A stretch of DNA of 64,000 bases, from assembly GCA_021771915.1 (NCBI GenBank), contig JAETNY010000007.1:1-64000 (forward strand). Reading direction: 5' to 3'. This document shows, piece after piece, positions 1 to 17,156 of this stretch. This DNA is from Bacillota bacterium. GTDB taxonomy: Bacteria > Bacillota > Dehalobacteriia > UBA4068 > UBA4997. The notes beneath the pieces were generated by a model. It was not told the DNA's origin, did no database searches, and saw only the letters and a program-made list of their open reading frames with translations. The number at the start of each line of letters is the position of its first letter. Position 1 is the stretch's first letter. The translations under genes and the position numbers were made by a program.

Positions 1-1362
1 ATTATATGACTTATATAAATATTTGTCTGAATTTACATCAACACCTATTAATACAAAAAAATGTTCTATTGCTCTTCGTAAATATTTTACCCCATCGTTA
101 TCTGCTATAGTTAAAGAATTAATATATTGCAACACCCTAAAATGATCTATTTCATCAGATAAATATATTTTGTAATCTTCTATTAATATAGTTAAAATTT
201 CATTTGCTATTTTCTTTCTTAAAGCGATATCTTTACCAGATTCAGTAAATAACAATTTAGTAATTAAACAAAATACATTCATCGAATCATATTTTATTGG
301 CGTAACATCTGGTGCATCAAAATTTACATTTGGTAATAATACTTGTATTTCGTTTAATAAATCATAAAGCAAATGCCATCGTGGCGCAACAATACATATT
401 TCGTTCTCTGCAACCCCTTGAGATAATTCTTTAGTTATAATATTGGCAATTGCTTTATACAAATCAACATTATTTATAAAATTATTATAATACAAAGATC
501 CGCTCTCATCCTTTATATTTGAAACAGAATATATCGGCATAGTTTTCAATTGAAAATTTGAATAAAAATCAATCAATCGTTGCGTTGTTCGATAGCATCC
601 ATCTAATCTTCTCTCAGTAAATACCAAGTCAAATTCCTCTTGTAATTCATAACATGATTTAGCAATTCCCCCCAAATTCCCATATATGGCTTGATCTGTA
701 TCTCCCACAAAAATTACTTGTATATTTTTATTTAATTTTACAATATTGCTAAGTATTTTATATTGCAAATTATTTGTATCTTGATATTCATCAACTAAAA
801 TACTTCTTATTATTCCAGCAATATTTTCAGAAATAAATCTATTTTTACCCACCAACTCATAAGATATTTCTAAAATACTATCAAAATCTATTTCTCTTTC
901 GGTCAATAATCGTTTCTTATATCTAGTTCTTATTTCTATAAAACTTAAAGGATCTTTATATCCAACCTCAATATTAAGCTGTTGCGCAATTTCTTTTGTA
1001 TACATCTCAGTAACATACTCATCTATAATATGATAACCTTGTTTCAAACGATTATGATACATTGTATAGGGTCTAATAATAAATTTAAGACAAAATTGAT
1101 GTATAGTACCAACCCATACCTTATCCTGCTCAACATTCATCTTTTCTAATCTTTCCCTAATTTCATCTGCCGCTCTGTTTGTATAGGTTATTGCAATATT
1201 AAGCTTTCGAGAATTGTTATTTTTTTCAACGATATATGCTAACTTATAGGTTAAGGTTCTTGTCTTTCCACTTCCAGGACAAGCTGTAAGTAAAATATTG
1301 CCTTCATCCATACAAATTTGTCTTTGTTGTGGATTTAAATCATCTAAAAGCGTATTTGTCAT
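1..1362 (-). CDS. UvrD/Rep-family DNA helicase (GajB-like), truncated by window edge
   Basis: Not in ORF track (open at the edge). Reverse-strand translation gives 454 open codons from ATG at 1362, with Walker A ACPGSGKTRT, ILVDEYQDTNNLQ and VIFVGDTDQAIYG. Confidence 0.92.
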   Translation of the reverse strand, partial: MTNTLLDDLNPQQRQICMDEGNILLTACPGSGKTRTLTYKLAYIVEKNNNSRKLNIAITYTNRAADEIRERLEKMNVEQDKVWVGTIHQFCLKFIIRPYTMYHNRLKQGYHIIDEYVTEMYTKEIAQQLNIEVGYKDPLSFIEIRTRYKKRLLTEREIDFDSILEISYELVGKNRFISENIAGIIRSILVDEYQDTNNLQYKILSNIVKLNKNIQVIFVGDTDQAIYGNLGGIAKSCYELQEEFDLVFTERRLDGCYRTTQRLIDFYSNFQLKTMPIYSVSNIKDESGSLYYNNFINNVDLYKAIANIITKELSQGVAENEICIVAPRWHLLYDLLNEIQVLLPNVNFDAPDVTPIKYDSMNVFCLITKLLFTESGKDIALRKKIANEILTILIEDYKIYLSDEIDHFRVLQYINSLTIADNDGVKYLRRAIEHFFVLIGVDVNSDKYLYKSYN

Positions 1363-3533
1363 TATTCACACCAATCTACACAATATTTATCTACTTCTAC
1401 CAAAAACTTTGATAAAACATCCTTTTCGTATGTTTTTCTGAATTTTTTTATACATTCTTTTTTTGTTTTTACGTCTTTAATATTCTTTATTCTTTGCTCT
1501 AAATCTTTTTTCTTCTCATCAGTATACCTAGATAACGAATATTCAACCATCCCAAAAACGATATTCAATGAAATTACTTCTCTGCTAGCAAACGCAATAG
1601 CCGATAAAATATATTGAGGAATATTAGCATTTTTATCAATATAACTTGCAAGAACAGTAGCATACCAACCCTTTTTCATTTTATCAGCTATTGTCAAAAT
1701 TGTATTGGCACATTCAGCATCTGTACCAGATTTTATTTTCTCTTTATGACTTTGTTTTTTATTATCTTGACGATACTCACTATCTATTATTTCATTAATA
1801 TAACCAGCATTCGCTCTATTCTCGACTAACGCAAAATCAATCTCTAACGTATGCGGCGCATAAAATATTTCAACCCAATTATTATCACCATATAATCTAT
1901 CTAGTTTATCTCTTCTGCTTTTGCCTCTCTTTTCTGCTTCCAGTTTATAAAAATGACTTCTTTCATCTACAATTTGTACATCTTCATCCGTAACAATAGC
2001 ACATGACCTTCGTATTCTTTCCTCACCAAAAAGACTTGCAATATATTCAAATGACACACTTCCTACATTAACCAAACCAATACCCAACTCATCTAATGAA
2101 ACGCCAAATGCCATTTTAGTAATATTAGGTATTAATATTTCTTCTCCATCACCTTCTACTAAAATAACACCTTTTGAAAACAACAAAACAGACCGTTTAG
2201 CATCCAAATAACGTTCAATACAAGTCGACAATGCTAGATTCTTTAATTCAAGATATTGCCGTCCAAAATCATCAAGACTTCTGTTTGGTTGTAATGCAAC
2301 ACTTTTATTATTAATTGATTTAAGCACATTAACACTATGTATAGCTGATACCTCTGCCAAATGTGTTGAATGAGTAGTAGTTATAATCTGTGTATAATCC
2401 TTTGTAATTTTCAACTTATCAAATAATGTTCTTTGAATATGAGTATGTATATGTGCCTCCGGTTCTTCAATTATCATAATATTAATCAGTTCTCGTGTTC
2501 TATTTATCTCATATTCCACAATTTTCAAAGCCATATAAATCATATTTAAATGGCCTAGTCCCAATGATTCAATATCATTCTGCTTTGATGTTTTCATAAA
2601 TAAATATCGTGATAATGAATTTATATCATCTTTTAACCCTGATTCTAAAATAATATCAGGCGAATAAACCATACCAATCATATCTAACAATTTATTATTA
2701 ATTCTTTGACCAACTAATTCAACCTGTTCGACTTCTGAAATAGATTGATTCAGTTGTACAATTTCATTTTTTATTTTATCAATTTCAGATTCTTTTATCA
2801 ACGACTCAACTGATTCCATAATTCGCCGAATAGGGTTTTTAGGTTTTCGTAATTCATTTGCTACATCACGCAAGGCATCAATGAACACTACTGAAATATG
2901 GTCTTGCACATCGGAAATATTAAGTTTACATCCCAAAATTCCGTCATCATCTTTATCTGGATCATTACATTTTCCATTTTCTAAATCTCCAACAATTTTG
3001 GTATACACTTCTTCATTTGTAAAATCAGTTTGAGAACGACTTGTATAATAAAACTCATAATCTGATAACTTTATCTTATTTCTTTCATTTTCAAAATCAA
3101 CAGGATCTGTAATTTCACTTAATTTTTTTCGAATATTTTTTTGAGGGCGAATAAAAAGTGAAATAACACCAATATTTTCACCACCACTTTTTATATATGC
3201 TTTCAAAAAATCTTCATTTTCTTTATCCGGTACAATTTCCGCACAAACCTCTGTTTGTTTATCCTCAGAAGTTATATTGCCAAATATTGCTGAAATGATA
3301 ATCCAATGCCCTTTCCAATTATTAAGTGAACCTGAAAAATCACTTTCCTTCAATCTTTTTGTATTATAATAATATGTATCATCCAACAACATTCTTAATG
3401 CTGTCATAGCATTAGATTTTCCAGAATCATTCTCACCAATAATTGTATTAACACCCTCATTAAAAGATAAACGCATTGCACTAATATTTTTATAATTAAC
3501 AATTTGTAAATAATTTAAAAACACAATATTCAC
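1362..3533 (-). CDS. OLD-family ATP-dependent endonuclease (ABC ATPase + TOPRIM), GajA-like
   Basis: GENDSGKSNAM Walker A, IIEEPEAHIHTHIQ Walker B, TTTHSTHLAEV, TOPRIM-like VILVEGDGEEILIP...IVTDED. Stop overlaps start of the UvrD gene by 1 nt (TAATG). Confidence 0.9.
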   Translation of the reverse strand: MNIVFLNYLQIVNYKNISAMRLSFNEGVNTIIGENDSGKSNAMTALRMLLDDTYYYNTKRLKESDFSGSLNNWKGHWIIISAIFGNITSEDKQTEVCAEIVPDKENEDFLKAYIKSGGENIGVISLFIRPQKNIRKKLSEITDPVDFENERNKIKLSDYEFYYTSRSQTDFTNEEVYTKIVGDLENGKCNDPDKDDDGILGCKLNISDVQDHISVVFIDALRDVANELRKPKNPIRRIMESVESLIKESEIDKIKNEIVQLNQSISEVEQVELVGQRINNKLLDMIGMVYSPDIILESGLKDDINSLSRYLFMKTSKQNDIESLGLGHLNMIYMALKIVEYEINRTRELINIMIIEEPEAHIHTHIQRTLFDKLKITKDYTQIITTTHSTHLAEVSAIHSVNVLKSINNKSVALQPNRSLDDFGRQYLELKNLALSTCIERYLDAKRSVLLFSKGVILVEGDGEEILIPNITKMAFGVSLDELGIGLVNVGSVSFEYIASLFGEERIRRSCAIVTDEDVQIVDERSHFYKLEAEKRGKSRRDKLDRLYGDNNWVEIFYAPHTLEIDFALVENRANAGYINEIIDSEYRQDNKKQSHKEKIKSGTDAECANTILTIADKMKKGWYATVLASYIDKNANIPQYILSAIAFASREVISLNIVFGMVEYSLSRYTDEKKKDLEQRIKNIKDVKTKKECIKKFRKTYEKDVLSKFLVEVDKYCVDWCE

Positions 3534-3545
3534 CTCATAATATAG

Positions 3546-6500
3546 TTATCTTATCACAAAACATTTCTCCACCAATTCACTTAACCTACCCTGCTTTGCT
3601 GCCTCCGCAGCATCAGCCTGCGCAAAATTATGTGTGGCATTTTTCAATTCCTCATCAAAACCTAAAATATAATTTGTCGCAATCAAATAAATAATGCGTG
3701 TCGGAGCCAGACCATAAACCTGTTTTTGCAAAATATGCTCAATCCGCTCTCTATCATCAGGAAAGGCCGCTTTCAAGCCCTCGCTGCGATACAAACGCTT
3801 AACAATCTCTGTTATATAAAGCCCAGATTTCATATACAAATCAGCAAATGTTTTATCAGGACTATCAAAGCAGCCCGGATTGTTGTCCGCCAACTGGTCA
3901 ACCATCATCGAAACAACCCAGCGAGGCGTAAATATCTGGTTAGTTTTTTGCGGCGGAATATAATCAAAAATATCTTCCGTCTGGGTTTCATCAAAATAAT
4001 TGGCCAACTGCTGTTTTTTATGCAAAAATTCTTCCAGCGCATCATCAAAAACAACTTCGTCAAAAAGATGACCGGCAAAATATTCAATCTCACCTGTATC
4101 TGGATTAAGATACTCACCACCATCTCGCAAAAAGCGAAAATCTTCCAAAGAAATACCCGTTACTTCCCGAAAAGCGTCCGGCTCTACATATTTATCAAAA
4201 TTAGCCAGCGTTAATTTTTCATCACCATAGGCCATAATAAAACTGGGAATTGTGCGAGAAAAACCACGCAAATGAGCCCGCATCTCATCTTCAACCGAGC
4301 GTTTTTCCTGTTCGGCCTTATGACGCTCAACCTGTTCAATAATCTCCTGCGGCTTGTCCGCAATAGTCTTTTGAACTGAATCCTTTACATTTTGCACCAA
4401 ATCTGCCAAAGCAGCTTCCATATTTATGTTATACTCAGCCTCCGCTTTTTGAACCTCATGCTCTGTTTCAGCCGCTTGCCTTTTGCGCTCTAATTCTGCT
4501 TGCGCAATTCTATTCTGTTGCTGGTAATCACTATGAATCTTCTGTAAATTATTATCAATTTCTCGCTCTGTTTGATTTATCAGCCGATTAGCAAAGCCTC
4601 TTTTTAAATCGTAATCAGCAATAACAGGCGCTAATATTTTTTCCTTAATGTCGCTTTTTACTGTTTCAGCAATATTATTGATACTGGCCTGTACTGCATT
4701 TACGCTGTTATTATCCGACAGCTTTTCAACCTGCTCCTGCACATTCTGGCTTATATTATCATATATTTTCGCCCCAAACAAACCCTGCGTCTTGCCAATC
4801 ACTATTTCATTGTCAATCAGAACACCACCATTTTCATCTAATTCTATGGTGTTCATACCAGCCAAACTATTTTGCTTAGGCTTTCTGATTTCTTCCTGCG
4901 CCGGCGTCAGCTTCTCCACAATCTCTCGCACAACAGCCGGTGCACCAAATATGTTGCTGATATTTTGAAACAGGAAATTGCACATAAACCCCCGGCGCAC
5001 AACCTCCTGACTTTTCAGGCGGCGAGGAATGGAAAGTACAGCAGCAGCGTCCAGCTTAACCATTTTGCCGTTTTCATCTTCACCAAGAACTGGTAAGAAG
5101 TTAAGCAGATTTTTAATATTTTCCCGGCGTTCATCTGTTGTGCCACGCCCAGAGGCAGTTTTGCCAGACAAATTATTGGCAAACTCATCAAATATAATAA
5201 GCGTTCTGGCCGGGTCAAAATCAAACACATAGGCAGTTTCTTTACGCAGGCGTTTATTGTCCATGGTTAAAACGCAAGGGTTTTGCGCCCGAAAAGCCGC
5301 CTGCATATAAGCGGCAGGGCTTTTCATATTACAAAGCATCAACACGCCGCTCCATTCGGGGATGGTAACGCCCACCGTCAACTGACCAACTGTTAAGGTG
5401 ATAGTTTTGTCGTTTTCAGCAATAGCCTTTTTCACCCGGTCATAGGCTTTAGTTACCTGCTCGTCATCATCCCGGCCATCACCAACTGCTAAAACAACTT
5501 CATAATCCCCAAAAACCTCATCATCTTTAAGCAGCTTTTTCAATGCCTTAGCGCTGGCAACTCGCTCCAGATACCACATAGTATGGCAAAGTTCCTGCCG
5601 CAGCTCCGGCGTGGAAAATGGATACTTCTCCTGCGTACTTAAAGCGTGCAAAAACTTTTTCACTTCCGCTTCATGAATAAACTTCTGGCTTTCATTGGTG
5701 GCAAAAAATTCATTCAAATCAAAGAAATAATCAACCGTATCTTCATCGGATATTTGAATACCCTTTGCCGCCTTTTCCTGAATCATTTCAGAAAGCTGAT
5801 ATGTAAACAACTCTAAACGAGGCAGCCGTTCATAGGGATTGTAATCGTTGGAACTCCATTTTTCTTTATAGCTTTGCTCGTCGGCATATGACCAGTTAAA
5901 AATCTGCTCTTTGGAAAACTGTTCGCTGGCCAGCGCCTTAAACGGCGTGCCGGATAGATACAGAGTTTTTGAGCGTTTTATTTTTTGAAAGGCTCGCTCC
6001 GTTTTTATGGTGTCCACGCCCTCATGGGATTCGTCCACAATAAGCAGGTCAAATTGCAAATCGGCAAGCCATTTTCGCTTGTCCGTAATATCCCTTTGTC
6101 CACCAAAATGAATGGAGCCTTTTAAGCCCTGCAAAGACTCAAAAGCAATTACCTTTCGGGGATTATTTTTATTGCTTAAATATTCCTCTCTGGAAATAAC
6201 TCCCGGTTTGCCTTTTACAGCGTCATTATCTGAAACAAAAGAGTATTTGCCACGCCAGCCAACAAATTTATAAAAATCGTCAGCCCAGGCATTTGCCACA
6301 CTTGGCCGATTGGTAACTACCAAAACCTTGCTTAAACCCATACGCTGAATTAAATCATAGGCAGTTAAAGTTTTGCCAAAGCGTGGTTTGGCATTCCAAA
6401 GAAACTCAAGATTATCATCTTGGGTATTTTCAAAATACGTCTTAGTCATATCAACAGCCATTTGTTGTTCTTTGCGCAATTCATATATGTACTGTTCAGC

Positions 6501-6872
6501 AGGAATCTGGTTTGTACGCATACAAAATTCATTAAAGTACATTAAAGAAACAGGGCCATTTAAACGAAACCATTCTGTCGAACCGTCAAAACAATTACGC
6601 TCAACATTGTACACATTTTGCAAAAAATCGTGAAACGCATTATCATTAAAATATTCGCCTGAATTATCTTTGAACATCGCATTATCCTGCCACAACAGGT
6701 TAGGACGAATCCCGGCAGTATGTGTTTGCTGTCTTATCCGTTGCGCCACCGTTTGCTTTTCTGTATAGCCAATTTTAGTCCAACCGTCCAAATAGGTTAC
6801 GCCCGGCGCATTATAGGCATAAATCATCGGCACAACTCGTGTAAAGGGCTTTATTTTGGCAATTTCGCTCAT
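3546..6872 (-). CDS. GIY-YIG nuclease-like N-terminus + SF2 DEAD/DEAH helicase + C-terminal methylase-like segment; restriction-type protein
   Basis: N-term MIYAYNAPGVTYLDGWTKIGYTEKQTVAQRIRQQ (GIY-YIG/T5orf172-like); helicase motifs PRFGKTLTAYDL, LLIVDESHE, LYLSGTPFKAL; C-term IFTPRWVVSMMVDQLAD. Confidence 0.85.
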   Translation of the reverse strand: MSEIAKIKPFTRVVPMIYAYNAPGVTYLDGWTKIGYTEKQTVAQRIRQQTHTAGIRPNLLWQDNAMFKDNSGEYFNDNAFHDFLQNVYNVERNCFDGSTEWFRLNGPVSLMYFNEFCMRTNQIPAEQYIYELRKEQQMAVDMTKTYFENTQDDNLEFLWNAKPRFGKTLTAYDLIQRMGLSKVLVVTNRPSVANAWADDFYKFVGWRGKYSFVSDNDAVKGKPGVISREEYLSNKNNPRKVIAFESLQGLKGSIHFGGQRDITDKRKWLADLQFDLLIVDESHEGVDTIKTERAFQKIKRSKTLYLSGTPFKALASEQFSKEQIFNWSYADEQSYKEKWSSNDYNPYERLPRLELFTYQLSEMIQEKAAKGIQISDEDTVDYFFDLNEFFATNESQKFIHEAEVKKFLHALSTQEKYPFSTPELRQELCHTMWYLERVASAKALKKLLKDDEVFGDYEVVLAVGDGRDDDEQVTKAYDRVKKAIAENDKTITLTVGQLTVGVTIPEWSGVLMLCNMKSPAAYMQAAFRAQNPCVLTMDNKRLRKETAYVFDFDPARTLIIFDEFANNLSGKTASGRGTTDERRENIKNLLNFLPVLGEDENGKMVKLDAAAVLSIPRRLKSQEVVRRGFMCNFLFQNISNIFGAPAVVREIVEKLTPAQEEIRKPKQNSLAGMNTIELDENGGVLIDNEIVIGKTQGLFGAKIYDNISQNVQEQVEKLSDNNSVNAVQASINNIAETVKSDIKEKILAPVIADYDLKRGFANRLINQTEREIDNNLQKIHSDYQQQNRIAQAELERKRQAAETEHEVQKAEAEYNINMEAALADLVQNVKDSVQKTIADKPQEIIEQVERHKAEQEKRSVEDEMRAHLRGFSRTIPSFIMAYGDEKLTLANFDKYVEPDAFREVTGISLEDFRFLRDGGEYLNPDTGEIEYFAGHLFDEVVFDDALEEFLHKKQQLANYFDETQTEDIFDYIPPQKTNQIFTPRWVVSMMVDQLADNNPGCFDSPDKTFADLYMKSGLYITEIVKRLYRSEGLKAAFPDDRERIEHILQKQVYGLAPTRIIYLIATNYILGFDEELKNATHNFAQADAAEAAKQGRLSELVEKCFVIR

Positions 6873-8798
6873 TTATTCCATCTCCTTTACATGAGTTTCG
6901 ATAAACTCAATTTCCTTTTCATCTAAACTATATTTAGCATATAGCTGCTTGTCGATTTCAGATATTGATTTTGTCCAGTCAATATCTGAATTAGAAGTAA
7001 AATCTTGCAAAGGAACATATCTCCATTTTGGCGCAGGATTATGCTGTGTTATCTTTAAAATACCCAACATAACACGACAAAACTTACTCTTGATATATTT
7101 AAGCAAATTTTCTACCTCAATAGAAGTTTGAAAATTACCAATAGAAATAAAGGTCTGGGTATGCCCGATTAAGGGCTGCCCGATTAAGGGCTGCCCGATT
7201 AAGGGTGTAGATAAAACCTCGCCCAAAGCGCCAGAACCATTAGCAGCAGGAACAAATACCTTATAAGCAGTAAAATTATCTGGAGCCTTAACATATTCCT
7301 TTTTTATCCATTTTGCCGTTCTATTGCCTTTAATCAAACCAAGAATTTGCACATAATCGCCATCAGCAGGCTTTTGTGAAAAGAAAATAGCATTATCCAA
7401 ATTTTCCAGCACACTGGTCTTAAAATCATATTTATGACCTTTACTCAGCAATCCCTCAATATTTGGATTCTCCTTGTGCATTAAATCAGTAAAACGATAG
7501 GACTCGGAAGCGTAAATAATAGAATTTAAACTTTGATGTGCAGTAGCATTTACCTTATTGGCAATACCTCTTAACTCGTCAAATACAATGAAATGTTCTA
7601 TTGCACCAAAATTTTGCTTGCTATCACGATATGTAATAGCGACGCCGCCTTTTATATCCGTATTAGCGAAAACCTCTGAACTATTGGGTTTATAATATAG
7701 CACTTTCAAATGCTCATCATTCAGCATTTTTTCATTCCACGCTTTAGGAGTGCTGCCAGCATTAAAAAGAAATCTGGCAGGGTGAATAAGTTCCACACAA
7801 TCAGCAATTTTATATGCTTCGTCCATAAACAGATTATAAATCGGCGGCGCATAGGTTTTATTTTCCCCAATAGTTTCATCTTGATAAGGCGGATTGCCAA
7901 TAATAAAATCAAACTTCATTGCCTTTTGCTCCTTTCGCTGCAATGCCAAAAACTCCAAACTGCGCCCCCCACGCCAATTATAAATGCGGCAACAGGGCTG
8001 GTGGTTTTCTTCCTCATCAGCTATGCCCCAGCCAAACAATTCCGCCATACTTACCTGCAAAGAATTGTTTTCGGCTTTTGCATAAGGCACAGTCCCGGTC
8101 AGCCCGTCCATTTGCCAAAGATTCCAACAGATTATGTTGGCAATTTTTTTATATTCAGCAAGTGTAGGTTTACGCTGCCAACGCTCAGTAAGATACTCCT
8201 CAAAGGTCATCAGCAAATTAACACGGGCAATCAGCAAATTATCGCCCTGAAATTCATAACCATAGGCAGCCTGAAAAGCCCTATAAACCCACTTAAGCCA
8301 TTCCGCTTCATTTTGGGCATTTTCATTAACCAAACGCAGCTTTCTATCCAAAATTCCGATACGTTCAGCTATCGGTATCATCTCGCCGCTTTCCACATCA
8401 TAGCGGCTCACCAGATACGGAGCCTCGCCGCAGGTTATCTCCAAGCGCCGGGAGTCCACATAATCCTGCCAGCTTTTGGTTTTGTCCCAAACTTCATCAG
8501 CATAATCATTCATCTTTCGGCAAACCCACAGTGGCGTAAAGACCTCGGCATGTTGCCTTGTCCTTACCGACTGCTGTTCCTGGGCCTTTCTGGCTCTGGT
8601 TTTAATAACCCCAGCATTTAAACCAGTAATCACTTCTGGCAAAATCTCCTCATTACGGCCATATTTTGCCCCAAAAGAGGAGTAAGCGTCAGTCGCCCAC
8701 ATAGTATTGCGCTTTGTCGTTTTATCAATCAATATTCTGTCTAAAATCCCTAAAGAATTTATTTTCAGAATATCGTCCTGAATATTGATAATCACCAA
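6873..8798 (-). CDS. Eco57I-like N6-adenine DNA methyltransferase
   Basis: EVFTPLWVCRKMNDYAD, motif-I-like LEITCGEAPYLVSRYD, catalytic FDFIIGNPPYQ; stop directly abuts the start of the helicase gene. Confidence 0.88.
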   Translation of the reverse strand: MVIINIQDDILKINSLGILDRILIDKTTKRNTMWATDAYSSFGAKYGRNEEILPEVITGLNAGVIKTRARKAQEQQSVRTRQHAEVFTPLWVCRKMNDYADEVWDKTKSWQDYVDSRRLEITCGEAPYLVSRYDVESGEMIPIAERIGILDRKLRLVNENAQNEAEWLKWVYRAFQAAYGYEFQGDNLLIARVNLLMTFEEYLTERWQRKPTLAEYKKIANIICWNLWQMDGLTGTVPYAKAENNSLQVSMAELFGWGIADEEENHQPCCRIYNWRGGRSLEFLALQRKEQKAMKFDFIIGNPPYQDETIGENKTYAPPIYNLFMDEAYKIADCVELIHPARFLFNAGSTPKAWNEKMLNDEHLKVLYYKPNSSEVFANTDIKGGVAITYRDSKQNFGAIEHFIVFDELRGIANKVNATAHQSLNSIIYASESYRFTDLMHKENPNIEGLLSKGHKYDFKTSVLENLDNAIFFSQKPADGDYVQILGLIKGNRTAKWIKKEYVKAPDNFTAYKVFVPAANGSGALGEVLSTPLIGQPLIGQPLIGHTQTFISIGNFQTSIEVENLLKYIKSKFCRVMLGILKITQHNPAPKWRYVPLQDFTSNSDIDWTKSISEIDKQLYAKYSLDEKEIEFIETHVKEME

Positions 8799-8917
8799 AC
8801 TTCCCCTTTCGGTATCAGAAAAACAACGATGTTATATATAATATTTTAGTCTATATTGACAGAAAATGCAATCGGATTATTGCAGGAACTCTGCATTGCT
8901 ATATATTATACATATTA

Positions 8918-9214
8918 TTAAAATTGATCAAACTCATCATAACAAGACAAAACAGGATTCTCTATTACTGATATATCATCTGACTCTATTAAAACATAAT
9001 TTATTGCACCTTCTGGATACTCCCACACTGAGATTTTCATAGATATTTCTGCATTACATTTATCGCAAACAAATTTTTGTTCATCTTTATACTCTATCTC
9101 TGCACCCATATTACGCTCATATGTTGCAACCATATCTAAATCTATATCTTCAATTACAATTAAATGCAAACATTTTTTACATTCTACCACTGCTGGTTTA
9201 ACAACACGCATCAT
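8918..9214 (-). CDS. small putative zinc-ribbon protein
   Basis: 98 aa with VECKKC (CxxC) and FVCDKC (CxxC); ATGA overlap with upstream HEPN-like gene. Confidence 0.65.
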   Translation of the reverse strand: MMRVVKPAVVECKKCLHLIVIEDIDLDMVATYERNMGAEIEYKDEQKFVCDKCNAEISMKISVWEYPEGAINYVLIESDDISVIENPVLSCYDEFDQF

Positions 9215-10407
9215 ACCACCTCATTTAATTTTTTCTCTAAATCAACCATTTTGTTGCAAGCATCTTTCAAGTTTTGAATCACCTGTTCATTAAATTCATC
9301 AGTATGATGAACAATTTGTATTCTTAGATTTATTACATCACGCAAACTTTTATACATATTTTCATCAATCAATCCTTTTCTTAGCAATAACTCTATTGCA
9401 CTTCCGAGAAAACTATATTGTCTATCCATTAATCTTTTTCTTTTTAAACAATTATGTATTGCTATTTCTAACTTTTTATAATTCAGTAAAAATTGCCCCA
9501 CTTGCTGTTCCTTATTAGCTATAATATTTTCAGCTAACAGTTCTTTTGATTCATCATCCACTGTTATTTGATCAAGCTCGGCAATCGCCTTTTCAAGTGG
9601 TTCGCTTATATCTTTATATAGTTCACATATTGTTCTATATTCACTTGCATTTATGCCTACATTATGAGCCACACAACACCTTAGATCATAAAACTTGTTC
9701 CATTCTTTTTTTAAATAATCTCCATCAATGGATACACTTTTCTTAAAGAATTTTTCCCAATTTGACATAGGCAAAAATTTTTCCAGCTCATCTACTTTAA
9801 GTTGTTTACGTTCACTACATAATTTTTTTAATTCTCCAATATTTGAAATTTGATACTCATCAAATAAAAAATTAGCCAAATCAATAAAGTCTAAATCATA
9901 TAAATATCCTCGTTTTCTATTTTTATTTTTATTACGTTCTTTAAATGCGGCAATTTTTGCTGGAACATTTTCTTTTTCCCAATTTGCACCAACATTTATC
10001 AACATAAATTTTGTAATCAATTTTCTCATTAAATTTTCAATTCTGAAAATTTTTGTATATGCTTTTTCTGCATAATATAATCCAACATCATTCCATATCA
10101 CTTCAATTTTTGCTTTTACTGTTCCCATTAGAACTTTAATTGCTCTTAATAATTCTTCAAAAATTTTTAATTCATTATCAAAGTGTTGCCCATTTTCATA
10201 GTTAAATTCGATGCTAATATCATAATAATATATATTATCTTTAATATTACCATTCTGTAAACTATAATGAAAACAAGTATTTTTAAAATAAATCTCATTA
10301 TTACTTATCGTTATATTACTATCTGATTGTAAAAAATACTTAAAAGAATTAATATTTTGGCAAAAATCTTTTTCTGTATCAAAAATAATTATATATTCAA
10401 CTTTCAT
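9211..10407 (-). CDS. protein with two HEPN-like Rx4H motifs
   Basis: 398 aa; RCCVAH (aa 243-248) and RIQIVH (aa 362-367), both in helical contexts typical of HEPN domains. Confidence 0.65.
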   Translation of the reverse strand: MKVEYIIIFDTEKDFCQNINSFKYFLQSDSNITISNNEIYFKNTCFHYSLQNGNIKDNIYYYDISIEFNYENGQHFDNELKIFEELLRAIKVLMGTVKAKIEVIWNDVGLYYAEKAYTKIFRIENLMRKLITKFMLINVGANWEKENVPAKIAAFKERNKNKNRKRGYLYDLDFIDLANFLFDEYQISNIGELKKLCSERKQLKVDELEKFLPMSNWEKFFKKSVSIDGDYLKKEWNKFYDLRCCVAHNVGINASEYRTICELYKDISEPLEKAIAELDQITVDDESKELLAENIIANKEQQVGQFLLNYKKLEIAIHNCLKRKRLMDRQYSFLGSAIELLLRKGLIDENMYKSLRDVINLRIQIVHHTDEFNEQVIQNLKDACNKMVDLEKKLNEVV

Positions 10408-10596
10408 AACATATATACCTCACATATTTTATAATTACAAATATAAACAATCCTATATTATACTTTTCTATTATCTACTAAATCCAATAACTTCATTATA
10501 TCATCTTATAATTATAAATAAAAGTCTATTAAGCAAAGTAAAAAAATATATTAACAATAAAAAACTTAAAACAACTCCAAAAACTATCGCAACAAT

Positions 10597-10839
10597 TCAT
10601 TTTCGTCTAAACATTACAGTTTTATTATTAAAATCTACACTCTCAACCTCATATCCTGCGTCAAGCCAAGCATAAGATTGTCTACCCTTACTTTTGTTAT
10701 TAGCCCACCACTGCCTATGCACATAAGCGCTTGCAGGCAATTTATCAACCAAGATTTTTTCAATTTCTGCAAATACTAAACATACATTTGCTTCTTCACT
10801 TTTTATTAAATATTTATACAAAGGTTCATATTTACTCAT
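10597..10839 (-). CDS. small conserved protein (DUF7662-like)
   Basis: 80 aa; pattern FAEIEKIL.DKLPASAY...WWAN...AWL.AGY.V..V; paralogue of 12251..12484. Confidence 0.7.
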   Translation of the reverse strand: MSKYEPLYKYLIKSEEANVCLVFAEIEKILVDKLPASAYVHRQWWANNKSKGRQSYAWLDAGYEVESVDFNNKTVMFRRK

Positions 10840-10859
10840 ATTTAATACTCCTTATATAA

Positions 10860-12065
10860 TTACTTCAAAAGCCAATCCAAAACATTTTTCTGCTTAATCC
10901 CATTATGCGAAATAACCGGCTCAGCATCCATAGTCAGCAAAAATTTAGGATTATGGTCGTGAATAGCCTGCAATGGCGCTAACTCTCTGGCCAAAATACT
11001 GCCATCAGCGTCCTGCACCGTTTGCGCCACCTGATAATATTCTTCACCCTCCTCGTTTATAGCGATAAAATCAACCTCCACCTTGTCAACCTTACCCACA
11101 TAAACCTCATAGCCCCGGCGCAAAAGCTCCAGATAAACCACATTCTCCAAAATATGCCCAGTGTCTGCTCGCTTGCTGCCCAAAAGATAATAACGCAAGC
11201 CAATATCAGCCAGATAATATTTACTACCAGTTACCAGTAACTGCCGCCCTTTCACATCATAGCGTTTAGCCCGATACAGTATGAAACTGTCGGTCAAGGC
11301 ACTCAAATAACTGTCCACCGTATGAGCACTGATTTTCCGTCCAGCCGAAGTCAGCGTATTAGCAATCTTGGTAGAAGAACATAAATTGCCGATATTGTCA
11401 AACATATAGCTGATAACATTTTCCAGCAACGCCACATCAGAAATTCGCTTTCTAGCCACCACGTCTTTCAGTACCACCGCCGTATAAATGCTCTCCAAAT
11501 AGACGCGAATATCCTGTTTGCGCTGCAAATCAAGCACATAGGGAAATGAGCCGTTCTGAATATAATCCCGATATTTGAATAACAAATCCGTTGGCGCAGG
11601 AAAAGCCGAAACATATTCCTTGAAGGATAGCGGCAGCATTTTGATCTCCACATAACGCCCAGAAAGCAGCGTCGCCAATTCACCAGAAAGCAAATAAGCA
11701 TTAGAGCCTGTTACATAAACATCACAGTTAGGCTTGATAAATAGCCCATCAACCGCCTTTTGAAAGTCCGGCACATTTTGTACCTCATCAATAAAAATGT
11801 AATTCATTTTATCCGCCACAAGCTGATTTTTAATCAAACCGTATAGCTTTTTCCAATCGTCAATCTCTCCCAAATCTGGATCCTCAAGATTTATACGGAT
11901 AATCTGCTCGACCTCCACGCCAACACTGCGCAAATAATCTCCATACAAATCAAACAAAGTTGACTTGCCACAACGACGAATACCTGTTACAATTTTGATA
12001 AGCTGTTTATCCTTAAAAGCGATAAGCTGCTGCAAATAATTTGGTCTTTCAATTAACTTTGGCAT
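10860..12065 (-). CDS. AAA ATPase, DUF4143-type ATP-binding protein
   Basis: VTGIRRCGKSTLFDLY Walker A, YIFIDEVQNVPDF Walker B; C-terminal DUF4143-like VDFIAINEEGEEYYQV. Confidence 0.92.
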   Translation of the reverse strand: MPKLIERPNYLQQLIAFKDKQLIKIVTGIRRCGKSTLFDLYGDYLRSVGVEVEQIIRINLEDPDLGEIDDWKKLYGLIKNQLVADKMNYIFIDEVQNVPDFQKAVDGLFIKPNCDVYVTGSNAYLLSGELATLLSGRYVEIKMLPLSFKEYVSAFPAPTDLLFKYRDYIQNGSFPYVLDLQRKQDIRVYLESIYTAVVLKDVVARKRISDVALLENVISYMFDNIGNLCSSTKIANTLTSAGRKISAHTVDSYLSALTDSFILYRAKRYDVKGRQLLVTGSKYYLADIGLRYYLLGSKRADTGHILENVVYLELLRRGYEVYVGKVDKVEVDFIAINEEGEEYYQVAQTVQDADGSILARELAPLQAIHDHNPKFLLTMDAEPVISHNGIKQKNVLDWLLK

Positions 12066-12206
12066 AACAACACCACCTTTTATGAAATCATTATATCATA
12101 TATCCGTTGCTATTGCAAATTTATTAAATAGATTTCTTAAAATATATCTAACAAGCAACTTTCAGCACTATAATTATATATAAACATCAGATTGTTTATA
12201 CATTAA

Positions 12207-12241
12207 AAAGCGCCTACCCCTAGCAAGGATAAACGCTATTT
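12207..12241 (-). terminator. Rho-independent terminator after 12251..12484
   Basis: Hairpin agcgcc-tacccctagcaaggata-aacgct flanked by A/T tracts. Confidence 0.55.
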
Positions 12242-12250
12242 TATAAATTA

Positions 12251-12484
12251 TTATTTGTGAAAAGTTACAGCCTGCATATCCCAATTTACATTATCAACTT
12301 TATAGCCTGCCTCAAGCCAAGCATTAGCCTGTATATGACCACCATTAGCCCACCATGCAGCATATTTATAAGCACTCGCAGGCAATTTATCAGCCAAAAT
12401 TTTCTCAATTTCTGCAAATGTCAAACGCAAATTCAACCGTCCGCTTTTTTTCAAATATTCATTTAAGGGGTCATATTTAGTCAT
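12251..12484 (-). CDS. small conserved protein (DUF7662-like), paralogue of 10597..10839
   Basis: 77 aa; LTFAEIEKILADKLPASAY...WWAN...AWLEAGYKV. Confidence 0.7.
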   Translation of the reverse strand: MTKYDPLNEYLKKSGRLNLRLTFAEIEKILADKLPASAYKYAAWWANGGHIQANAWLEAGYKVDNVNWDMQAVTFHK

Positions 12485-12568
12485 TTTTACTTTGCACTTC
12501 CTTTCTGATAAATATTTAATCAGAAAATAATAGCATCACGTTATAATGTCAGAATACTAACATTATTT

Positions 12569-14977
12569 CTATTCATTATTCTGTGCCGTATCAAAGCCTA
12601 TCTCGAATGAAGACTTAAATTTTTGCAAGCTTTTTCGTGCCAGATTCATAGCTTTTACGGTTTCTTCTTCCCTTTTAATTTCAGCTTTTATCTCTTTGGC
12701 CTCTTTTTCCTTAGCCTCACCAGCCCGCAATCTTAAATCAACCAGGCCCTTTTCGATTTCGCTAATTTTTTGCACATATTGCTCATAAATGCTATTAGAA
12801 TATTCAATATCTTTTTCATCATTAAGAAATATTTCTCTGACAGCAACAAGCAGTTTGGCTGATTGCATAATAATAGTTTTTTTACCAGCCACACCAGCCA
12901 AACCCACAGCGCCGCCCACGCCAGCGCCAACTCCCAATCCAAGAACAGCGCCGCCGCCAACTATTACCAATCCTCCAGCAAACATTCCCCCACCTCCAGC
13001 AGCAATCGCTCCGCCGCCCAAATAAGCAAGACAAGCACTTGTTAAAGCCGCACCATGCAAACCTACAAAATTTGAACCCACCAAGGCAACTGCTATTGAC
13101 GGCGCAAACACTCCAGCAGTCGCAACAATAACAACAGAAACAACCGCTGTAACGGCCAAACCTGTTACCACATTTTTCAAAACCTCATTCAATTCTCCAA
13201 GCACATTGTCATAGCACTTTCGCAATCGCTTAATATATCCTTTAGGACAGTATTCTTCACAAAAAATATCGTCTAAATATTTATCGCCAAGATCTTTATT
13301 ATAACCGCTAATAATGTTTTGCAGATCCTTATACATTTTACTTGGAACATCATTGCCCTTTTTATCCTTTTCAAGAGTTAGTGTGTAATAGGGTTCAAAG
13401 AGCATTGCTTCCAGCATGACAAGCCGAAACCAAGTGTTCTGTGGATTATTTTCCTTAATTTTGGCAATAAGTTCCTTTTCATTTTGATACCAATGCAGTT
13501 CCGCACCTTCAATCTGCATAAAGCTTGCAAATCCTCTGGTCATATTAACTTTCCATTCTGCAAGCCAACGCTTTTTCAAACTCTTTATACGTTCATTACT
13601 AATTAACACTTTAGTATTCCTTAAATCATTTAATGTCTTAAAATAATCAATATTATATAAAATCTCTGTTTGTTCCATAGTTAAACAAAATTTATCCATA
13701 TTTATACTATTATTCATATCATCACCTATTCGCTTATAAATGTTATTATCTTCCACCAAAAAAGCAAATTGTTTAATATTTTCGTACATCTGCTTAATTT
13801 TTTTAATATTTCTGGTTTTCAAACACCAGCCAACATCTTCGCTAAAAGCAACAGCAAAACGTCCAACACCTATGTAATTAACTGCAACCCAATATTTTTG
13901 TGAAATAACCGCCTCGCCTATATCAAGCGTTGTAAAAACACCAGTTGCTATCAAAAGCATTCTGGAAATCGTTGGGTTGTTTGTCGGAACTACATTTGCC
14001 AATTCGATTTTTTTTATATTCATAAGCGTTTGAACATTACGAGTTTGCATTTCCATTGCCAAGCGACGAATAAAATAAAATGCTCGCACAATACATTCAT
14101 TAGCAACAACAGGAACTGCCTGCTGTCCCAGTTCAATCCCGATACCAAGTTCACCCCGCAAATCAAACCTCAAAACTGTGTCTTTTATAATGGCTCCAGA
14201 TTCATCACGCTGGGCCAGCAATGTTCCGTTAAACAGCTTAGACAAAAATATCGACAAAGAATTACCGCCAATCTTAATATTCTTAAAAAAAGGCAGTACT
14301 GATAATTCCTTAGCTAATGACAATATCGGGCCTGGAATGCCGGTTCCGCCGCTCTGCCCTACCGTACTGCTTGAACCAGCCATATCGCTAACAAGATGAA
14401 AGAACCAAGTAATTGTGCCAAACAATATTTTAGAAGGAATATCACGGCCAATAAAAGCCTTGCTTTTTTCAGGTACCTCTGCCACCATAAAACAACCATT
14501 TACATCTGTGCCATAAGATTTATATGTAAATTGTGTTAACAGCGAAAACATCAAACCAACTATTGTCGGGTGATGTGCAAAATCTCGAAGATGATGTTGA
14601 AGTCCACCACCAAAAACAGGAGTATTTCCATCACTGGGAATGGGAAATTTATTCTCCAAAAATCTAACGGCAGACTCCAAATCATCGCCTTGATAACCAA
14701 GCATTTTGGCCGTCTTTTTAACAAATCCATCAACCTGTTTGCTTGCTACATCCCGTCCTTGTTTCAAACTAAAATCGCCAACCCATAAAATGTCAAGCAA
14801 AGCGCATAATATTCCGCTGCCAACGGCTACTAAATAGTCATATCTATCAGCCTTACTTGACAGCAAGTCAATTTGGCCGTCCAAATCATATAAAATCCTA
14901 TCAATGTCATATTCACTGTTTGCAGCCATTTTATTATCTGACATAAGTTCTACTTGCAGTATTTTCTCTTTTTCCAT
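12569..14977 (-). CDS. large protein of unknown function with Gly/Ala-rich hydrophobic C-terminal region
   Basis: 802-aa ORF; hydrophobic segment VVTGLAVTAVVSVVIVATAG...GGGAIAAGGGGMFAGGLVIVGGGAVLGLGVGAGVGGAVGLAG, then a charged helical tail. Confidence 0.8.
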   Translation of the reverse strand: MEKEKILQVELMSDNKMAANSEYDIDRILYDLDGQIDLLSSKADRYDYLVAVGSGILCALLDILWVGDFSLKQGRDVASKQVDGFVKKTAKMLGYQGDDLESAVRFLENKFPIPSDGNTPVFGGGLQHHLRDFAHHPTIVGLMFSLLTQFTYKSYGTDVNGCFMVAEVPEKSKAFIGRDIPSKILFGTITWFFHLVSDMAGSSSTVGQSGGTGIPGPILSLAKELSVLPFFKNIKIGGNSLSIFLSKLFNGTLLAQRDESGAIIKDTVLRFDLRGELGIGIELGQQAVPVVANECIVRAFYFIRRLAMEMQTRNVQTLMNIKKIELANVVPTNNPTISRMLLIATGVFTTLDIGEAVISQKYWVAVNYIGVGRFAVAFSEDVGWCLKTRNIKKIKQMYENIKQFAFLVEDNNIYKRIGDDMNNSINMDKFCLTMEQTEILYNIDYFKTLNDLRNTKVLISNERIKSLKKRWLAEWKVNMTRGFASFMQIEGAELHWYQNEKELIAKIKENNPQNTWFRLVMLEAMLFEPYYTLTLEKDKKGNDVPSKMYKDLQNIISGYNKDLGDKYLDDIFCEEYCPKGYIKRLRKCYDNVLGELNEVLKNVVTGLAVTAVVSVVIVATAGVFAPSIAVALVGSNFVGLHGAALTSACLAYLGGGAIAAGGGGMFAGGLVIVGGGAVLGLGVGAGVGGAVGLAGVAGKKTIIMQSAKLLVAVREIFLNDEKDIEYSNSIYEQYVQKISEIEKGLVDLRLRAGEAKEKEAKEIKAEIKREEETVKAMNLARKSLQKFKSSFEIGFDTAQNNE

Positions 14978-15054
14978 ACCCCAAAATCACCTTTTAATCT
15001 GCATTTTATTTTTTTATTATACTTTATCGTCAATGATTTTGCAATGCTTTACAC

Positions 15055-15098
15055 AAAAAAGTCGCCTACCCTCCAATCTGGAGGGTAGGCGACTTTTT
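15055..15098. terminator. perfect hairpin, probable bidirectional terminator
   Basis: aaaaagtcgcctaccctcca-atc-tggagggtaggcgacttttt: 20-bp perfect stem, 3-nt loop. Confidence 0.85.
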
Positions 15099-15128
15099 CA
15101 TATTATTTTATTACCCAAACAAAACGCT

Positions 15129-15260
15129 CTATAATATTACCTCTATATGTACCGTACTTTTGCTAACCCCAAAAACTCCGGCCGTCTGCCGCACTGTTGA
15201 TTTGCTTTCAATTATATAATTGCTGATTTCCAACACTCTTTTTTGGATATACTCCTGCAT
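15129..15260 (-). pseudogene. spoIIID: truncated sporulation regulator SpoIIID (N-terminal HTH half only)
   Basis: MQEYIQKRVLEISNYIIESKSTVRQTAGVFGVSKSTVH then IEVIL-stop; matches the SpoIIID N-terminus from memory; good RBS (GGGGAGG). Confidence 0.75.
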
Positions 15261-15395
15261 AAAAAGGCCTCCCCACTTGTGCCACAAACTTTTGTAAAGT
15301 ATATGACTCAAGTGGGGGATTATGCCAAAGAAAAAGTTATCTGTTCCCGTTCCGTTCTAAAAAGCCCTCTATTGCACACCCTGTTTCATCATTTT

Positions 15396-15917
15396 TTATA
15401 TACACGGCCCAATTAAACTTTTAATCTCACCACAGGCGATTTTAGTACCAGAATTGCCAGAGGGTTGTGTAGCAAAATCATCAGGGTTATTATGAATTAT
15501 AACCGTTCGTCCAACAATCTCATCAACGCTGAAGCGATTGGTCAAAAACGCCGAAATCGCAAGTCCCTTGTTACCAAACAGCGGCGGCAAATCACCGGCA
15601 TGATACGGGTGCGCACAATTCGCCAAATCAAAATGCTGCATAGCGTCAGCAAAAGGGTCTTTCATATTGCCCTCGCAGTCCGTTCCTTGGTGTATGTGAA
15701 AGCCAAAAATCCCCTCATAACATGGACGCTGAACATCAGGCAGTCCGCATATCTCAGCAAACACAATCACACCTTCATGGGTTTGATAAAACAGCACCGT
15801 TCCCAGAACATCAGGGTATTTTTCGCTACCCCTGATAACGGCCGCCGCCTGCGCCCGACTGCATAAAATTGACGATAAATGCAAATCGGAATGGCTGCAA
15901 TAAAACTGCTTTGTCAT
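15396..15917 (-). CDS. Cu/Zn superoxide dismutase family protein
   Basis: GFHIHQGTDC, HPYHAGDLPPLFGNKG, GRTVIIHNNPDDFATQPSGNSGTKIACGEI. Confidence 0.93.
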   Translation of the reverse strand: MTKQFYCSHSDLHLSSILCSRAQAAAVIRGSEKYPDVLGTVLFYQTHEGVIVFAEICGLPDVQRPCYEGIFGFHIHQGTDCEGNMKDPFADAMQHFDLANCAHPYHAGDLPPLFGNKGLAISAFLTNRFSVDEIVGRTVIIHNNPDDFATQPSGNSGTKIACGEIKSLIGPCI

Positions 15918-15995
15918 ATAAAAACGCTCCCTTACAATTAACGCTTAATATACCAGAATATGCAGCTTTATATCAACAGGTTACCGCTTCGGCGC

Positions 15996-17156
15996 TCAAC
16001 CATTAAATTGTAATTTAACAACCAACAGAACAAGAACCGCCAGAAAACAGATATTTCCCAGCGTAAACAATGCAATATATTTACCTTTACTCTGCGGAAT
16101 TTCCTTAGCAACCTGCTTATAAGAAATTAAACTTGCCATGGAAGCAATCAGAGTACCAAGCCCACCCAGATTTGTGCCGATAATAAGGCCGGCAAAATTC
16201 TCCGTAAAACCAGACAAAAGCAGCGCCGCCGGCACATTACTAATAATCTGGCTGGCAATTATAGCGGTATAAATTTCCCGACTGGCAATAATATTCTGCA
16301 AAAACTCACAAAAAACAGGAATACTGCCAACATTACCAATAAAAATAAAAAAGCCTGCAAATGTAAAAAGCAACGAATAATCAACCTGTTTAAATACCTG
16401 CCTGTCAGTTACAAATATAACAATGCAGACAAGTGCCAAAACCAGCAGCCAAGGCAAAATATGCCCCACCGTCAGCAAACAAAGCAAAAATAACGCCAGA
16501 TAAACTATTAACGGATACATGATTTCTTTCTGACGCAGAGAATTGCAGACGGTTGAATTATGTCTAAAACGCAGCGACAGCGCGCCAATTTTACCCAACA
16601 GCATACTGCAAGCCAATAGCATAACAAATGCCAAAAGCGCATAAGGCAACATCAACAGCATAAATTTGCTAACGGAAAGACCGGCTTTGCCGTAAAGATA
16701 CAAATTTTGCGGATTACCTATGGGCGTCAGCATGCTGCCAAGATTAGCCGCAATCGTCTGCATCACAACCACCGGCAGCAGCAGGCGTTTTCTGAGCTTT
16801 GTTCCCAACAGATTAAAAACTGTAAATGTAAAGGGCACAAAGGTAATCAGCGCCACATCGTTGGTAATCAACATGCTGGAGAAGAAACACAGCAAAACCA
16901 AGGTCAGAAAAAGCCCCCGGCCATTTTTAACACGCAGCAAAAGCTTTCTGGCCGTCCATTGAAATACGCCAATTTTCTGCAAACCGGCCATAACAATCAT
17001 CAGGCAAAACAATATCGCTAAAGTTCTGTAATCAATATATTGCCAATAGCTGCTGTTTGGCGGCACAATAAACATCGAGAATATTGCTAAAATAACAGCA
17101 ACACATAAAACCGTTTCTTTTTTGAAAAAATCAATTATTCTATTCATAAAATGCAT
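15996..17156 (-). CDS. SLC13/ArsB-like anion permease
   Basis: 386-aa polytopic protein; IANLGSMLTPIGNPQNLYLY, NVPAALLLSGF. Confidence 0.85.
   Translation of the reverse strand: MHFMNRIIDFFKKETVLCVAVILAIFSMFIVPPNSSYWQYIDYRTLAILFCLMIVMAGLQKIGVFQWTARKLLLRVKNGRGLFLTLVLLCFFSSMLITNDVALITFVPFTFTVFNLLGTKLRKRLLLPVVVMQTIAANLGSMLTPIGNPQNLYLYGKAGLSVSKFMLLMLPYALLAFVMLLACSMLLGKIGALSLRFRHNSTVCNSLRQKEIMYPLIVYLALFLLCLLTVGHILPWLLVLALVCIVIFVTDRQVFKQVDYSLLFTFAGFFIFIGNVGSIPVFCEFLQNIIASREIYTAIIASQIISNVPAALLLSGFTENFAGLIIGTNLGGLGTLIASMASLISYKQVAKEIPQSKGKYIALFTLGNICFLAVLVLLVVKLQFNG

Follow-up and report, generated by a model that had tools for sequence, protein, structure and literature searches.

Bacterial Swt1-like HEPN proteins (HEPN_Swt1 and the Abi2/Swt1 group) have been tied to restriction-modification (R-M) operons (Anantharaman et al. 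2013, PMC3710099), and in the described Swt1 forms the fusion partners are AAA+/DUF499, PIN or wHTH/REase domains. Tha, encoded by prophages of S. aureus, is a single-protein HEPN RNase with a phage tail protein as its activator (PMC11087260), and auxiliary HEPN effectors occur in BREX and BREX-related loci (PMC12839542). Hotspots of defense genes, HEPN genes included, are carried by P2-like phages and P4-like satellites (PMC9122126).

The gene analyzed here lies on the minus strand (9211..10407) of a 64 000-nucleotide stretch of a Bacillota contig, hereafter the window, and encodes a 398-aa protein with two probable HEPN domains, HEPN1 and HEPN2, as delineated from the open reading frame (ORF), a 24-sequence family alignment and an AF2 model. 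The likeness to HEPN_Swt1 (PF18731) consists in matches of HEPN1 in 22 of the 24 family members (E <= 0.05, best E 2e-8); in contrast to the described Swt1 forms, the family combines this domain with an N-terminal alpha/beta domain and with either a HepT-like HEPN or a PD-(D/E)XK-like domain. With Tha, the family shares the single-protein, prophage-borne HEPN format, an N-terminal region and the RNxxxH motif, but Tha, compared by its published architecture only, is a protein of 301 aa with one C-terminal HEPN domain (PMC11087260). The PDB matches to HepT of the MntA-HepT type VII toxin-antitoxin system (7bxo, 5yep, 6m6u) are presumably due to HEPN2, and there is a weak Pfam/NCBIfam match to HepT at aa 325-380; HepT, however, is a single domain of about 130 aa, whereas the window protein has two HEPN domains and no MNT antitoxin was found adjacent to it. 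The remark in a preliminary description of this DNA that an MNT nucleotidyltransferase is missing was borne out in that no match to this family was detected among the neighbors scanned, and a HEPN-MNT (type VII) module was accordingly rejected. Like the BREX-associated effectors, the homologue from Nostoc is encoded between brxC and pglX, within a BREX-1 operon, but most members of the family found lie outside BREX.

The closest library entry is the PADLOC-DB candidate PDC-M34B, the profile PDLC04592 of which is matched by all 24 members (best E 4.9e-12; window protein, 1.4e-7). The match is partial (the profiles are 147-192 aa long) and covers, in the window protein, the region ENLMRKLI..NVG..W; no publication for the name PDC-M34B or PDC-M34 was found in the literature searched. 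Beyond this partial match, no named system for the family turned up in the libraries searched. ApeA was rejected given the lack of a match to a PADLOC or Pfam ApeA model at E <= 10, and so were PrrC and RloC, in which HEPN is fused to an SbcC/Rad50-like ABC ATPase, the 398-aa protein being devoid of an ATPase domain. The protein family is thus one for which no name was found, although its parts and its general strategy are already known.

Motifs and predicted fold of the 398-aa protein

The two Rx4H motifs on which the preliminary description built its HEPN assignment are present as claimed, R243-C-C-V-A-H248 (9664..9681, minus strand) and R362-I-Q-I-V-H367 (9307..9324, minus strand). By count only, such motifs are mildly unusual: at least two Rx4H motifs occur in 1.7% of the shuffles of the same protein, and at least two CxxC pairs in 0.7% of the shuffles of the 98-aa protein encoded next to it. 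The motifs are taken as real because they are conserved in homologues, not on the strength of these counts. E124, R128, G140, W143, R243, A247, H248 and N249 are invariant in the family alignment (24/24), and R243 and H248 are also invariant in a separate alignment of nine further sequences that include very distant ones, so that the invariant pair spans Bacillota, Pseudomonadota, Bacteroidota, Ignavibacteriota, Cyanobacteriota and phage contigs. The second Rx4H motif, mostly in the form RNxxVH, is found in 16 of the 16 close relatives that have HEPN2 (15 others in the alignment, and Nostoc); in locus L032, a second Rx4H is located further downstream, at residue 425, outside the shared alignment column. 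The second motif is absent from Persicobacter and from eight members with a PD-(D/E)XK-like C-terminus.

In the AF2 model, calculated on the alignment (mean pLDDT 82, pTM 0.64), the N-terminal domain (residues 1-106; 10090..10407, minus strand), a putative sensor, has the order b-a-b-b-b-b-a-b, with pLDDT about 80-96, and its Foldseek matches are weak, of the ACT or ferredoxin-like kind, every one with E > 0.2. The Swt1-like HEPN1 (residues 107-276; 9580..10089, minus strand) is helical throughout save for short bridges, from the helix 107-138 to the helices 229-247 and 254-276, and the HepT-like HEPN2 (residues 285-397; 9217..9555, minus strand) is all-helical (helices 301-323, 334-343, 349-367 and 374-397). 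Motif 1 lies at the end of the helix 229-247 and motif 2 at that of the helix 349-367, each of which is the penultimate helix of its bundle. All-alpha bundles around both motifs are what the HEPN assignment predicts, and the assignment is supported by the predicted fold together with the conservation in homologues and the Pfam HEPN_Swt1 and HepT-like matches. The window protein itself is not among the PF18731 matches at the 0.05 limit; its only Pfam match when searched alone is HepT-like (PF01934, E 0.015, aa 325-377, below the gathering score), a domain matched by seven of the 24 family members. The best Foldseek match in the PDB, HepT 7bxo (prob 1.00, target TM 0.54, E 0.09), is of the right kind, with a weak score; sequence searches of the PDB gave nothing convincing, and in a Foldseek search of viral models no E-value was lower than 0.13. 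Alignments and model together show a predicted layout of an alpha/beta N-terminal domain, a Swt1-like HEPN and a HepT-like HEPN, each HEPN domain with its own Rx4H motif.

In the window protein, motif 2 reads RI where the relatives have RN, a departure overlooked in the preliminary description, and because the usual polar residue after the arginine is thereby missing, the HEPN2 site is possibly weakened here. This substitution, along with a fast branch (length 1.48 in a rapidly built tree of the core region), could be taken to mean that the protein is decaying, or that it binds RNA as a HEPN protein without catalytic activity, but the ORF, motif 1 and all the invariant positions are intact, which renders such a reading quite improbable.

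Spread of the family and an exchanged C-terminus

A tblastn search detected homologues in Persicobacter and, with 34% identity at 93% coverage, on a plasmid of Nostoc, and the alignment of these with the window protein was used as the query of a wider search. This query yielded 13 loci from one-per-species genomes, of the genera Bacillus, Paenibacillus, Serratia, Pantoea, Silvania, Acidovorax, Acidithiobacillus, Pontibacter, Moritella and Pseudoalteromonas as well as of other Bacteroidota and Ignavibacteriales, and 12 loci from viral contigs, where a single-sequence scan with the window protein had found nothing. The reading frame is interrupted in two of these 25 loci (L028 and L040). A profile search of 399 genomes of the phylum found the family in seven, six of them besides the window's own and all six with distant members. 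The HEPN loci outside the window genome hence number 34 (three from plasmids, six from the phylum search, 13 from the one-per-species genomes and 12 from viral contigs), each counted once, the viral contigs possibly overlapping genomes already counted. No homologue of the window protein, and none of the P2-type protein, was detected in the phage collection; E. coli genomes had no homologue of the L030 gene.

The gene is absent from the 34 other genomes of the order, including eight of the same genus, and its GC content is 25%, compared with 47% in the window from 15 to 64 kb; for these two reasons, it appears to be a recent acquisition. Homologues are found in prophages and phage-like contigs, near integrases or tail genes (flanking ORFs read by eye). 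The neighbors of homologues include a zinc-ribbon DUF4145 protein and, in L026, a DUF4238 gene that follows the HEPN gene.

In eight members, from Moritella and seven viral contigs (L027 and L033-L039), the N-terminal domain and HEPN1 are unchanged, and HEPN2 is replaced by another C-terminus. The replacement has an Asp that never varies and an ExK that is retained for the most part (D...A[VI]E[VI]K), an arrangement of PD-(D/E)XK nucleases, and a few family members show weak Pfam REase_AHJR-like and UPF0102 matches, so that, by its sequence, this C-terminus is classified as PD-(D/E)XK-like. In the rapidly built core-region tree, a branch with SH-aLRT 100 separates the eight members from the others; therefore, one exchange suffices. 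An exchange confined to one clade is as expected of a core with a swappable effector: the core would accept different effectors, HEPN2 having apparently been swapped for a PD-(D/E)XK-like domain in a prophage branch.

The 98-aa gene and the surrounding cluster

Downstream of the HEPN gene, on the same strand, an ORF (8918..9214, minus strand) encodes a 98-aa protein that was correctly described as carrying two CxxC pairs and as overlapping the HEPN gene by ATGA. The pairs, C12-x-x-C15 (9170..9181, minus strand) and C50-x-x-C53 (9056..9067, minus strand), are invariant in both alignments of the small-protein family, as are M36, G37, E65, Y66, P67 and G69, which gives the signature CxxC...MGxE..Y...CxxC...EYPxG. 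The AF2 model is all-beta (mean pLDDT 80), and the fold search with it returned no informative PDB match; judging by its cysteines, the protein would be a zinc-ribbon module, a putative zinc binder. Free-standing relatives are encoded on a Synechococcus plasmid, small Proteus plasmids and Lactococcus plasmids, and in viral contigs. In Bacillota, the module is N-terminal to an Mrr_cat nuclease in L042 (E 2e-30) and L043 (by its sequence), and in L044-L046 it is the C-terminal part of MerR-like regulators, behind a MerR-type helix-turn-helix. The Mrr_cat nucleases and MerR-like regulators thus share the signature with the 98-aa protein, but the module is fused there and free-standing beside the HEPN gene here. 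Because the module elsewhere serves as the N-terminal part of Mrr-type proteins or is included in MerR-like regulators, a role in nucleic-acid or partner binding is likelier for it than catalysis. In L044 and L045, by eye, a recombinase-like gene adjoins the MerR/zinc-ribbon gene.

The preliminary description had gone further and proposed that the two genes constitute a linked system. In a toxin-antitoxin or sensor-effector pair of this kind, the zinc-ribbon protein would restrain or trigger the HEPN RNase. The arrangement of the genes in the window suggests joint translation: in addition to the ATGA overlap, the end of the HEPN gene, AAATGAGGTGGTATGATG, contains the SD-like sequence GAGGTGG ahead of two possible starts, which makes translational coupling plausible, and the matching extreme GC3 values of the two genes (HEPN, 0.17; zinc-ribbon, 0.19; compared with 0.39-0.40 in the R-M-like neighbors) suggest joint arrival. 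The comparative evidence points the other way. When a zinc-ribbon profile was run on the six-frame ORFs of all the HEPN and zinc-ribbon loci collected, every strong match came from a zinc-ribbon locus or the window genome and none from the other HEPN loci (0/34, with less than 500 bases available downstream of the gene in L019, L032 and L034); conversely, the HEPN profile had no match in the zinc-ribbon loci save the window's own. Loci were also seen that encode a relative of the 98-aa protein but no HEPN gene. Among the 399 genomes, nine contain the zinc-ribbon family (three at E > 0.001), and the window genome is the only one that contains both families. Conserved pairing, the lack of which the preliminary description had itself named as refuting its proposal, was absent in every locus tested; the proposal of a linked system is not supported, and we regard a two-gene pair as unlikely. 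The best reading of the 98-aa gene is that of a local, optional rider, neither an essential nor a conserved component; since the ORFs overlap and share the extreme AT-rich composition, local, strain-specific coupling of the two genes may nevertheless exist.

In two viral contigs (L037:5352-5771 and L039:7374-7817), a protein of 139-147 aa with two CxxC pairs is encoded directly behind the HEPN gene. It does not belong to the zinc-ribbon family of the window; by eye, its HHDH stretch is HNH-like, and it has no Pfam match above the cut-off.

The HEPN gene shares its cluster with several defense-like genes; those given below with coordinates are on the minus strand. At 1-3533, Gabija, which the preliminary description had also overlooked, is represented by GajA (1362-3533, PADLOC E 1e-235) and GajB (1-1362, E 3e-151), with GajB truncated where the contig begins. 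Next, at 3546-8798, are a ResIII helicase with an N-terminal T5orf172, GIY-YIG-like domain and a separate Eco57I methylase, which correspond, respectively, to the middle and the end of one single-chain type IIG restriction-methylase profile, so that, by sequence comparison, the pair looks like a split type IIG restriction-methylase. The placement of the HEPN gene between this pair and an AAA_14/DUF4143 ATPase on the other side was confirmed. The ATPase matches the candidate PDC-S01 (E 3e-158) and is flanked by two similar small proteins, one on each side (10597-10839 and 12251-12484), the first of which is DUF7662 (E 6e-18). At 12569-14977, an 802-aa protein resembles BnzB of Bunzi over residues 28-232 (E 5e-45), covering only part of BnzB, and PDC-M09A over residues 603-716. 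In GC3, GajA (0.18) is similar to the HEPN and zinc-ribbon genes. A pattern scan detected no terminator-like site, and its promoter-like sites were about as frequent as in shuffled sequence.

In this setting, the HEPN protein could be a PrrC-like back-up suicide effector of the adjacent R-M genes that is released once a phage disables restriction. The helicase and the Eco57I methylase adjoin the HEPN gene, the Nostoc homologue is located inside BREX-1, and HEPN genes within R-M and Pgl/BREX loci have been described as back-up effectors (PMC3710099, PMC12839542). Nevertheless, dependence on the R-M genes seems doubtful, considering that most of the homologues lie in prophages or islands rather than beside R-M genes (ORFs by eye) and that the GC3 of the HEPN gene differs sharply from that of the R-M-like genes (0.17 and 0.40, respectively).

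Possible mode of action

The defense function of the 398-aa protein, which we infer throughout, would proceed in several steps. The two HEPN domains would jointly provide a single composite RNase site, metal-independent and built either in one chain or by dimerization. The RNase would be held in check, to be released when the N-terminal domain recognizes a phage product or the state of infection; it would then cleave host and phage RNA, resulting in growth arrest and abortive infection. In the window, the 98-aa protein, plausibly coupled in translation, may tune expression or activity. A stand-alone, infection-triggered RNase is the most economical reading, with precedents in Tha, a stand-alone prophage defense that has been tested, and the HEPN back-up effectors, and the protein is probably a two-HEPN RNase triggered by phage. 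The entire reading, RNase mechanism included, in which the protein is a self-contained anti-phage effector from a widespread, horizontally moving HEPN family, appears reasonably likely.

An alternative with a similar protein layout is an RNA-guided or RNA-restrained HEPN of the Cas13an or AbiF kind, held by a non-coding RNA. Two HEPN domains within about 400 aa amount to a similar size and layout, and the HEPN domains of Cas13an are structurally like those of Swt1 and AbiD/F (PMC12165695). However, no CRISPR-like repeats were found in window positions 1-16000 or in nine homologous loci, with no direct repeats of at least 20 bases within 400 bases in the same part of the window, and there was no PADLOC Cas13 match; Cas13 and Cas13an were rejected on the repeat evidence. 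Likewise, AbiD/AbiF was rejected for lack of any Rfam match, AbiF RNA (RF03085) included, up to E 5 in the region 8600-12600 around the gene. An RNA partner is, accordingly, highly improbable.

The infection-triggered RNase can be placed in a broader, more tentative scheme, that of a hitherto undescribed, modular single-gene defense family from at least five bacterial phyla in which the N-terminal domain and the Swt1-like HEPN core would sense infection and drive either the second HEPN, as a composite RNase with Cas13-like pairing in one small chain, or the PD-(D/E)XK-like domain; a single sensor would thus give an RNA-cutting or a DNA-cutting output. We consider this scheme possible but on balance rather doubtful. 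With this family, the prophage-borne RNase defenses would gain a compact two-HEPN protein outside CRISPR, and the two C-terminal versions on one core would allow a direct test of a shared sensor with different effectors. The family would also provide a small model for HEPN pairing within one chain, a question raised by the work on the origin of Cas13.
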